From: Bacteroidota bacterium
GTDB lineage: Bacteria > Bacteroidota > Bacteroidia > Palsa-965
Assembly (NCBI GenBank): GCA_003153435.1
Contig: PLYR01000077.1
Coordinates: 2,083-62,939, forward strand
Direction: 5' to 3'
DNA length: 60,857 nt
Shown here: one piece after another, positions 39,513-43,509 of the stretch
Layout of the letters: each line of letters starts with the position of its first letter
Numbering within the stretch: the stretch's first letter is position 1
Notes under the pieces: generated by a model
Database searches by the model: none
What the model was told of the DNA's origin: nothing
What the model saw: only the letters and a program-made list of their open reading frames with translations
Made by a program: the position numbers and the translations under genes

Positions 39513-39905
39513 TTAGTTAGATTTAAAAAATGGTGCTATTGTAAAAAATGAGAGTGCAGGAAAAAAGTGCATGGGGATTGCGAGACCTGGAAACATCTCA
39601 GGACTTTCAATTGTAACAGGTAGTCGCATACCTAAAATACTTATAATACTTGCAAAACTTAAAACAGATACAAGAATATTAATCCACCCTTTTGATTTTT
39701 CTCCTTTCCACTTAAAACCAAAATAATATGTTAAGCCTATAATTAAACATCCAAATAAGGTTGCTCCTATTATACTGCCAGTATTTAATACTGAACTAAA
39801 GTTAAGTTCAAATGCTGTGCTGTAAATGATATTGTAAATTACAGACGCTGCGATTGCTAATAAAGCGCTTATAAGCGCATGTATTAAAGTTCGTTTTATT
39901 GTCAC
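39513..39905 (-). CDS. Four-helix integral membrane protein of unknown function
   Basis: 130 residues with four hydrophobic segments (about 8-28, 42-65, 73-92 and 108-125) and short loops; a basic loop WKGEKSKG sits between helices 2 and 3. No family is recognised. It follows a YceI-like gene with a 4-base gap, and both are AT-rich compared with the flanks. The preceding 39245-39512 holds no credible gene. It has an imperfect hairpin (CTGTA...TACAG, 39478-39496) and a tandem CCCCATATCAA pair at about 39440-39466. Confidence 0.75.
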   Translation of the reverse strand: MTIKRTLIHALISALLAIAASVIYNIIYSTAFELNFSSVLNTGSIIGATLFGCLIIGLTYYFGFKWKGEKSKGWINILVSVLSFASIISILGMRLPVTIESPEMFPGLAIPMHFFPALSFFTIAPFFKSN

Positions 39906-39909
39906 TGTT

Positions 39910-40440
39910 TTATTTTGTTACTGGCGTAGTGATTTCTATTTCTAACGTTTCCGGCGTCCCACCTTTTGTAATATTGTAATCCTTAGGAATAATAGTGAAC
40001 TTCCCTTTGAATTCTGATTCCGTTCCTTTATTTTCAAAAGCAAATGGAAGGCTAATTTCTTTTGTTACTCCTTTAATTGTAAGCTTACCAATTGCAGTAT
40101 AGGCACCACTTTTTCCGGAAACAGAAACCGACTCAAAATTAATAGTCGGGAATTGTTTTGCATCCAAAGCGTCTTCTGATTTTGCATGTTTGTTTTTCAT
40201 ACCATTGCCAGTGTTAATGGTATTAACATCTAAAGAAGCGGATATTTTCGAATTTTCAGGTTTTGCCTCGTCAAACTCTATGTTTGTCTTCAAGCCTTTA
40301 ATTACACCGTCTACATTTTTCCCTTTAAATGTAACGGAATACGTATTTTCATTTAGTTTCCAATTGGTCGATTGAATTGCAGTAAATGCAGATGCAACTA
40401 ATACCGTAAGAGCGCCAAGCGCTAATTTTATACTTTTCAT
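39910..40440 (-). CDS. YceI-like periplasmic lipid-binding protein
   Basis: 176 residues. Signal peptide MKSIKLALGALTVLVASAFT then AIQ. The mature domain is a lipocalin-like YceI barrel: WKLNENTYSVTFKGKNVDGVIKGL, then ISASLDVNTINTGNGMKNKHAKSED, FPTINFESVSVSG, and GKLTIKGVTKEISLPF. YceI proteins bind isoprenoid-like ligands in the periplasm; in some bacteria they respond to acid, copper or stress. It lies between the membrane protein and a divergent-history regulator on the same strand, 70 bases downstream of the latter. Confidence 0.93.
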   Translation of the reverse strand: MKSIKLALGALTVLVASAFTAIQSTNWKLNENTYSVTFKGKNVDGVIKGLKTNIEFDEAKPENSKISASLDVNTINTGNGMKNKHAKSEDALDAKQFPTINFESVSVSGKSGAYTAIGKLTIKGVTKEISLPFAFENKGTESEFKGKFTIIPKDYNITKGGTPETLEIEITTPVTK

Positions 40441-40510
40441 TTTATCTTGTTTTAATGGTTTTTATTAAGACAAAGGTGGGAAGTTAAAAAGACCAGTGAA
40501 TTGATGTGAG

Positions 40511-41410
40511 TTAAGAAATGATTTTATTTTTTCTGACTAATTCTTTCCTTACACGACTTAACCCTTCAGGAGTTATTCCAAGATAGGAGGCAATCATTTT
40601 TTGAGGGACTCTCTGCACAAGGTTAGGGTATATTTTAATAAATTCGGTATAACGTTCTTGCGCACTTGAACTCAATAATTGAATAATACGTTTTTGATGT
40701 GCGTAATTTCTTTTTAATAATTTATTGTTCATATCTAATAATGATTCCTTATCTAAATAATTTATTTTATCCATTGAATTTATCTGTAGAATTTTCACTT
40801 CAGAGTCTTCAATTGCATCTATATTTAGAATTGCAATACCATTATTAAGCTGTGATTCTCGTGCACCAATGATCCAGTCTTCAGGAGCAAACTGAAAAAC
40901 ATGCTCTTTCCCCTTGCTGCTGATAATATAACTTCTTAAACATCCTTTTACAACATAGAAAAGATTATCAGAGGGGTCTCCATTCCGCATAAGTATTTCA
41001 CCTTTTTTTACGACTCTTATTTTGGATCTTTCTATTCCGGAAACGTAACCTGCTTTTGCTTTTATTGGAACGATCTCAATATTTTCTTTGTTATTGGAAT
41101 AAACCGTTGTGGCTAACACCCTAATTTTTGTACCCATTACATACTCGTCATTTCCCGATTCCAAATTTCTAATTTGCAGTTCCGTTAAACGCTTTAAATT
41201 CACCCAAAGCAAAGAATCAACACTTATTTTATAATGCTCTGAGAATTTTCCTAAGTCTACAACGGTAGGATTAGAATTAACACCGTTTTCAAATGCATTA
41301 ATTTTTGCACGAGTTACATTTAATGTTTCAGCCGTATCAGATTGAGTTTTTTTTCTCCTCTCTCTCAGGTGCTTAAGGTTGCTCCCTAAAAAACTTTTTG
41401 GTTTTTTCAT
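40511..41410 (-). CDS. Chimeric regulator: XRE-type HTH plus Crp/Fnr-type regulator
   Basis: 299 residues in three parts. Residues 8-66 are an XRE helix-turn-helix (NLKHLRERRKKTQSDTAETL, INAFENG). Residues 67-122 look like the linker of XRE-S24 (LexA/CI-like) repressors of Bacteroidota, ending IVPIKAKAGY, where Ala120-Gly121 is the self-cleavage site position. Instead of the S24 peptidase, residues 126-299 are a complete Bacteroidota Crp/Fnr regulator: VVKKGEILMRNGDPSDNLFYV, FQFAPEDWI, and the winged HTH RVPQKMIASYLGITPEGLSR. The protein would have two DNA-binding domains and a cyclic-nucleotide-type pocket, though the canonical cAMP-binding residues are not evident. It probably controls the YceI/membrane-protein genes downstream. 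Very AT-rich. Confidence 0.88.
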   Translation of the reverse strand: MKKPKSFLGSNLKHLRERRKKTQSDTAETLNVTRAKINAFENGVNSNPTVVDLGKFSEHYKISVDSLLWVNLKRLTELQIRNLESGNDEYVMGTKIRVLATTVYSNNKENIEIVPIKAKAGYVSGIERSKIRVVKKGEILMRNGDPSDNLFYVVKGCLRSYIISSKGKEHVFQFAPEDWIIGARESQLNNGIAILNIDAIEDSEVKILQINSMDKINYLDKESLLDMNNKLLKRNYAHQKRIIQLLSSSAQERYTEFIKIYPNLVQRVPQKMIASYLGITPEGLSRVRKELVRKNKIIS

Positions 41411-41455
41411 TATTAAATGTTATTATAGTTAAGACATAATTGTTATTTTCCGTAA

Positions 41456-41486
41456 CAAATGTATGAATAATGTATCCTGATCGAAA
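41456..41486 (-). promoter_or_regulatory. Promoter for the XRE/Crp regulator gene
   Basis: On the minus strand TACATTTG (41463-41456) matches TAnnTTTG, with TTTC (41486-41483) 19 bases upstream as a near -33. The box lies 45 bases before ATG 41410. The leader contains no clear operator, though an AT-rich stretch with TTAACTATAATAACATTTAA could bind the XRE domain. Confidence 0.6.
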
Positions 41487-41890
41487 GTTTGTTCGGTTGA
41501 AATTGACTTCCTCTCTGTGTAAGGCCCTACAGGAATCTCATCAATACCGTTTGCTTTCTTCCAGAGATCACCTCCCTTCTTACCAAGAAGCTGTTGCAAC
41601 ATCTCACACTTTACCCCACTTTACCGCAGTTCACACCACGGGTCTTATTACTGGCTTAATTGTCTGGCTTTGTCCTGCTTCTCCTGAAAATCAGATTTCG
41701 TATATTTACCTACAATGTGCTACTGCCGAACTGCTGAAAAACCAAGTCATTTTTCTCCCTTGGCCCGGATGTAATGCGCTTCCATGTATGAGTGCTACCC
41801 TCACAAGGATTTTCAGTCCTTTGCTCTGTCTTATTCACCTTCCCGGCTTTTCTAAAACCGAACCTACCGTACAAGGTAGGTTAGTCCATC
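41487..41890. other. Gene-poor stretch with a tRNA-Phe-like anticodon arm and a hairpin
   Basis: About 400 bases with no credible gene. An open frame crosses it on the plus strand but runs into the terminator at 41891-41935 and has no family features. On the minus strand 41827-41802 matches the centre of a bacterial tRNA-Phe: the D-stem 3' side GAGC, a perfect 5-bp anticodon stem and the loop CTGAAAA (anticodon GAA). The D-arm 5' half and T-arm are missing. A perfect 8-bp hairpin AACCTACC/GGTAGGTT lies at 41861-41882. The stretch may be debris from integration next to the AT-rich cassette. Confidence 0.5.
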
Positions 41891-43080: not shown

Positions 43081-43509
43081 ATGGGAAATTTAAAGGTGGG
43101 CGATCTTATTTTCGAATCGGAACCGGTAATTTGCACAGTTAGATCGGGAATTTTCACTATTCCTCCAGGAATTTGTAAAATGGGTGCAGGAACTTTTACT
43201 TCTCCTTCAGGAATTTGTAAAACCACTACAGGAATTTTCACTTTTCTTGCAGGGATTTGTAAAACGTGTGCAGGAATTTTTACTTTTCCTGCAGAAACTT
43301 GCAGAACGGGCGCAGGAATTTTTGCTTTTCCCACAGGAATTTGTAGAACCGGTGGAGGAATTTATACTTTCCCCGCAGGAATTTGTAAAATGGGTGGAGG
43401 AATTTTTACTTTTCTTGCAGGAATTTGTAGAACCGGTGGAGGAATTTATTTTTTTCCCGCAGGAATTTGTAAAACCGGTGGAGGAGTTTATATTATTGTC
43501 GGGGTCTAG
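43081..43509 (+). CDS. Possible repeat protein (14-residue GIC..GG.FTF repeats), doubtful
   Basis: An ATG frame of 142 codons (MGNLKVGDLIFESEPVICTV) runs through the 42-base tandem repeats and stops just after them. It yields repeats of the type AGICKTGGGIYTFP, with seven-residue sub-periodicity that could form a stacked beta structure. A second plus-strand frame (GTG 43184 to 43579) is also open and reads as heptads, QEFVKPVEEFILFP, resembling a coiled coil. Since repeat length is a multiple of three, open frames are expected by chance once a unit lacks stops. Neither frame has a recognised promoter or family. I favour the first because it has an ATG and pre-repeat sequence, weakly. Confidence 0.3.
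   Translation: MGNLKVGDLIFESEPVICTVRSGIFTIPPGICKMGAGTFTSPSGICKTTTGIFTFLAGICKTCAGIFTFPAETCRTGAGIFAFPTGICRTGGGIYTFPAGICKMGGGIFTFLAGICRTGGGIYFFPAGICKTGGGVYIIVGV
43166..43501. repeat. Eight tandem 42-bp repeats with 21-bp half-units
   Basis: Eight head-to-tail units of exactly 42 bases, each starting CAGGAATTTG (variants CAGGGATTTG and CAGAAACTTG). Each unit is itself two similar 21-base halves, CAGGAATTTGTAAAACCGGT-G and GAGGAATTTTTACTTTTCTT-G. The first half-units upstream (from about 43120) are degenerate. Units differ at several positions, which suggests an old array rather than a recent expansion. There are no spacers, so it is not a CRISPR. Confidence 0.95.

Follow-up and report, generated by a model that had tools for sequence, protein, structure and literature searches.

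The XRE-S24 proteins of Bacteroidetes have been described as a non-canonical LexA (Sanchez-Osuna 2021, PMC8565304). Each recognizes palindromic DNA within the promoter of its own gene; in E. anophelis one such bound site is TTAC-AAATT-GTAA (PMC8565304). Two further described groups bear on the locus reported here: the Crp/Fnr regulators, of which a relative has a solved structure (PDB 3dn7), and the XRE-cupin regulators (PMC7901475). We analyzed a 60,857-nt stretch of a Bacteroidota metagenome-assembled genome (MAG), hereafter the window, in which a single gene combines parts of the first two groups.

This gene is one continuous minus-strand frame of 299 uninterrupted codons (Table 1). In a Pfam scan, HTH_3 matched residues 12-66 with 39.4 bits (cut-off 23) and cNMP_binding (PF00027) matched residues 132-210 with 37.7 bits (cut-off 27.5). 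HTH_Crp_2 (PF13545) scored 24.1 bits at residues 263-295, just below the curated cut-off of 27. Despite this score the C-terminal HTH is present: its conserved columns are retained, and the Crp-type regulator PDB 3dn7 aligns with residues 130-292 including this HTH (E = 1.9e-20). Together with the single frame, these matches bear out the original prediction of an XRE HTH, an S24-type linker and a Crp/Fnr part in one protein. Neither PF00717 (Peptidase_S24) nor any cupin family matched the chimera, so the peptidase domain is gone, as had been proposed; an S24 domain with its Ser-Lys dyad is missing from the gene and from the window. A sequencing frameshift joining two normal genes had been named as a possible objection, but the frame is continuous and contains no ATG, GTG or TTG between codons 98 and 141. 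Because of this lack of start codons the Crp half cannot start separately, and its expression by itself was ruled out. Structure prediction with a five-sequence input returned a mean pLDDT of 41.6. On these comparisons the protein carries a DNA reader at each end, its self-cutting domain gone, and positions 40511-41410 encode a true chimera of two traceable parents.

Table 1. Features of the locus, by position in the window (L numbers are loci of relatives).
Feature	Position	Strand	Basis
130-aa membrane protein, third cassette gene	39513..39905	(-)	after yceI in L022, L024, L031, L051
yceI, predicted target of the Crp half	39910..40440	(-)	Pfam YceI 107.5 bits; crp-yceI-TM order in L024, L031, L051
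yceI promoter -7 element CACCTTTG, 29 nt from Crp-site center	40471..40478	(-)	spacing conserved
Candidate FNR-like Crp site TTAACTCACATCAA, overlaps the chimera's stop codon	40501..40514	(-)	recurs 3' of 15/38 Crp genes, spacing fixed
Chimeric regulator gene, 299 aa	40511..41410	(-)	one ORF; searches gave no further full-length match
Crp/Fnr half: cNMP-type sensor 132-210, C-helix, HTH_Crp 263-295	40514..41017	(-)	Pfam, 3dn7, 66% identity to L051, conserved columns
Join zone, residues 123-131, origin ambiguous	41018..41044	(-)	codon comparison with S24 and Crp relatives; tblastn to L005 stops at 41021
Linker with what is left of the cleavage loop, residues 67-122, last residues ...VPIKAKAGY, Ala120-Gly121	41045..41212	(-)	alignment with ~30 intact XRE-S24 proteins
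XRE/CI-type HTH, non-canonical LexA type, residues 12-66	41213..41377	(-)	Pfam HTH_3; sister to intact XRE-S24 proteins L050, L023, L025
Candidate operator O2 TCTTAACTATAATAACA, 23 bp from O1	41418..41434	(-)	same paired arrangement
Candidate operator O1 TGTTACGGAAAATAACA	41441..41457	(-)	same place in L050, L023, L025, L113
Promoter -7 element TACATTTG (TAnnTTTG), overlaps O1	41456..41463	(-)	conserved in L050, L023, L025
dinB (Pol IV) fragment, about 47 codons, same direction as chimera	41465..41605	(-)	tblastn E 1e-15, 54% identity

By its architecture, dinB linkage and operators we assign the first parent to the Bacteroidota non-canonical LexA. Genome G003, of the same genus, encodes a 273-aa protein (locus L005, identical to L050) that is 71% identical over chimera residues 2-131 and then continues into Peptidase_S24 (PF00717). 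Intact S24-bearing relatives were also found in G041 (72% identity) and G171 (63%), giving a range of 63-72% over residues 1-131 for the three; in G041 and G171 the XRE-S24 gene and an intact dinB run in divergent directions from a short gap between them. In a tree built from residues 1-122 the chimera grouped with these three intact relatives (bootstrap 98-100%). Residues 67-122 aligned with ~30 intact XRE-S24 proteins, confirming the resemblance to S24 repressors claimed for them, and the Ala-Gly cleavage motif (KAKAGY, residues 117-122) aligned with that of all relatives. The predicted XRE-S24 origin stood as regards the S24 family, but the parent would be a non-canonical LexA, dinB-linked in several relatives, and not a generic S24 repressor. 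Elsewhere in the genome the donor S24 C-half has no counterpart but a 36% paralogue. RecA-stimulated self-cleavage and damage induction are expected to have been lost with the catalytic domain. In G003 the intact relative adjoins an AAA protein of the McrB-like kind together with two DNA methyltransferases of the D12 class (L012:836-6660), which match PADLOC models for type II restriction and methyltransferases; these neighbors suggest that the LexA-type branch in G003 may control a restriction cassette too.

The second parent is a Crp gene from a conserved cassette in which Crp is followed by YceI and a membrane protein. A plain Crp gene lies directly 5' of yceI and the membrane gene in L024, L031 and L051, in agreement with the suggested YceI linkage of homologues; L022 has a more distant Crp with one gene intervening. 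The nearest plain Crp relative, that of L051, is 66% identical to the Crp half of the chimera. It starts MQDVNFSKELFKTKTKEIKKGEI, whereas the chimera has ...GYVSGIERSKIRVVKKGEI, and from this difference we conclude that the Crp leader was replaced: the N-terminal ~16-20 residues of the L051 and L024 proteins give way to the LexA-derived linker. A full Crp/Fnr regulator had been predicted at residues 126-299; the sensor and HTH are there, but the leader is not. Nor does the join fall exactly after AGY as proposed, since S24 similarity runs on (AGYVSGIERSK vs. AGYATGFGNSK) and the join lies within residues 123-131. The Crp half retains 33 of 36 conserved Crp columns, and its end branch (0.37) compares with a median of 0.36. 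Lost in the chimera are the S24 half, the promoter of the Crp gene and about 16-20 codons from the start of that gene. Each half has stand-alone homologues with regulatory DNA of their own, and at the chimera both kinds of regulatory DNA occur together, which supports the predicted domain replacement. L051 itself, where the match began at residue 111, was considered as a second chimera and rejected, since the gene there is plain crp, with MQDVNFSKELFK at its start and a frameshift inside the sensor (L051:5019-5551, in its MAG). The cAMP-binding residues of E. coli CRP (G-E ... R-S/T) have no evident counterpart in the chimera's FAPEDWIIGARESQLNN, which makes cAMP an unlikely ligand.

The DNA on both sides of the gene is conserved. 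Upstream stand twin palindromes 23 bp apart, TGTTA-N7-TAACA (O1) and a copy with a mismatch in one half-site (O2), and a -7 element of the form TAnnTTTG, which we take to be the Bacteroidota promoter type. The same pair with the same spacing occurs at five loci, namely the chimera and the intact genes at L050, L023, L025 and L113, and when every upstream region was Markov-shuffled 20,000 times, a palindrome pair 23 bp apart never appeared. The inner part of the chimera's palindromes fits the dyad-N5-dyad form bound in E. anophelis (TTAC-AAATT-GTAA; PMC8565304). The chimera inherited the promoter of its LexA parent together with the twin operators. Other perfect matches in the genome were discarded as LexA-type operators because they lie inside coding frames, except one at C78, over which no long frame runs; the clearest predicted target is consequently the chimera gene itself.

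Downstream, between crp and yceI, the sequence TTAAC-N4-ATCAA is intact and centered 29 nt before the -7 element, a spacing suggestive of a class-II-type site. A script located such sites, at 28-30 nt, downstream of 15 of the 38 Crp genes, where the control averaged 0.03; it missed the chimera's own site, present at 29 nt, owing to the overlap with the stop codon. The Crp recognition helix of the chimera, TPEGLSR, carries what we take to be the E-x-x-S-R pattern of FNR, matching ATCAA half-sites. Across the 4.0-Mb genome the full site pattern gave two perfect matches, one behind the chimera and one behind a paralogous Crp at C82, and one single-mismatch match before a pirin gene (C133), with zero in the control. 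On this pattern, yceI, the gene next to the C82 paralogue and the pirin gene may form an undescribed regulon. The FNR-like site at a fixed 29 nt was seen at 40471-40514, L024, L026-L028, L035, L038, L046, L048, L051 and other loci, often before yceI. The locus thereby also exposes a conserved unit, Bacteroidota Crp regulators with a fixed FNR-like site before yceI, of which we found no description.

Starting from the observed anatomy, the two ancestries, the conserved DNA sites on both sides and the loss of the S24 half, we infer with moderate confidence a regulator that would dimerize, repress itself, activate yceI and be insensitive to damage. A rearrangement would have fused the LexA 5' half (promoter, two operators, XRE HTH and linker up to the Ala-Gly loop) in frame to crp, the fusion point lying just inside the start of the Crp gene of the crp-yceI-membrane-protein cassette. 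The product would be a homodimer held by the Crp C-helix. Its XRE heads would occupy O1 and O2 over its own promoter, and its FNR-like heads would sit on TTAAC-N4-ATCAA, some 41 bp ahead of where yceI transcription starts, activating yceI when the Crp sensor is active. Because the Ser-Lys (S24) domain is gone, RecA-driven self-cutting could not switch the chimera off and its output would no longer respond to damage. Counted against this reading are its occurrence in one MAG only, the absence of a second chimera and the mismatch in one O2 half-site.

Alternatively, the LexA half may contribute only a promoter and a start codon, the HTH being a passenger in an otherwise ordinary Crp regulator of yceI. 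Since the join zone offers the Crp half no start codon, the donor's promoter and start would be needed, the Crp site and yceI are intact, and XRE domains usually require a dimerization partner for good binding. We nevertheless consider this explanation unlikely: the chimera has kept 31 of the 32 columns conserved over residues 1-122 in ~30 intact XRE-S24 proteins, its end branch in the tree of the same residues is of normal length and not accelerated (0.16 vs. 0.22 for its sister), and both operators of the HTH are retained.

The dinB fragment directly upstream of the chimera (41465..41605) is oriented opposite to the dinB of relatives, which is intact and divergent. The rest of this dinB was not found elsewhere in the 98% complete genome, and a separate dinB, 64% identical to that of G041, lies at the end of contig C54. 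We read the fragment as a probable remnant of a dinB/LexA module, inverted relative to that of relatives; the broken, inverted copy and the separate dinB at C54 together indicate that the ancestral module was rearranged here. The fragment ends in ATACATT, a sequence recurring at the LexA-type promoter and perhaps the microhomology of the rearrangement. At the C54 end (L076) the contig stops inside the genome's main dinB, and an integrase-core (rve) transposase occupies the place of the XRE-S24 gene kept in relatives. A tandem array of eight copies of a 42-bp unit (80% matches), with open frames on both strands, lies at 43147-43492.

Another reading is a recent accidental fusion that selection has yet to act on, a chimera without a useful role in a decaying locus. 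The inverted 47-codon remnant and the single occurrence would fit such an accident, and the conserved residues of the linker, which persist despite the loss of their S24 partner, may be due to the recency of the event and not to selection on the fusion. Yet no stop interrupts the 299 codons, the two halves are intact, as are the two sets of DNA sites, and the nearest intact relatives are 25-35% diverged, so that a long-standing loss of constraint would show. We judge this explanation to be quite improbable.

The chimera is known from one MAG of 149 contigs (98% complete). No second chimera was found in about 790 sampled genomes (395 from the class and 395 from the phylum; the samples overlap) or in the contigs of 84,980 species, and no further ones in viral contigs, phages or plasmids. 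A search covering part of the literature found no such architecture in publications, which counts for little. The 801-bp stretch across the junction matches only itself in the genome, except that its dinB part has a match of 71% identity and that 22 bp match elsewhere at chance level; the junction is unique in the genome. An assembly artifact of the metagenome bin, which would suit the 149 contigs, the three unrelated pieces (dinB piece, lexA half and crp) within 1.1 kb and the lack of another known copy, is very improbable given that no genomic repeat spans the junction, that the missing S24 half and the rest of dinB are absent elsewhere in this nearly complete genome, and that the reading frame and both regulatory regions are coherent. 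As far as sequence can tell, this is a genuine, well-documented gene fusion of unusual domain order, with its control DNA intact on both sides.

A transcription factor is seen here amid domain replacement, and since the two parents, their promoters and their respective binding sites are still recognizable, the chimera offers a small experiment of nature on whether a LexA-type HTH remains able to work with an allosteric sensor instead of a dimerization/cleavage domain, and of how rewiring can lose damage control. A bolder, rather unlikely idea is that of an evolved regulator whose LexA self-cutting domain was swapped for a ligand-sensing second DNA-binding module; LexA-type operators would then be under a Crp signal, and one dimer might bridge its own and the yceI promoters, about 940 bp apart.

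Compared with the non-canonical LexA of Bacteroidetes (PMC8565304), the chimera shares the N-terminal HTH, the linker and the Ala-Gly motif, as well as twin palindromic operators in its own promoter and adjoining dinB sequence; it differs in that the S24 Ser-Lys peptidase/dimerization domain is exchanged for a Crp/Fnr module and in that its dinB is an inverted fragment only. With the yceI-linked Bacteroidota Crp/Fnr proteins (L024, L051; structure of a relative, PDB 3dn7) it has in common the sensor, the C-helix, the FNR-like HTH, the crp-yceI-TM gene order and the conserved site that precedes the yceI -7 element by 29 nt, but it lacks their N-terminal leader and own promoter and carries an extra XRE HTH in front. 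The XRE-cupin regulators (e.g. of Pseudomonas, PMC7901475) resemble it in placing an XRE HTH before a beta-barrel sensor; theirs is a small cupin with a single DNA-binding domain, whereas the chimera has a cNMP-type sensor and a second HTH.
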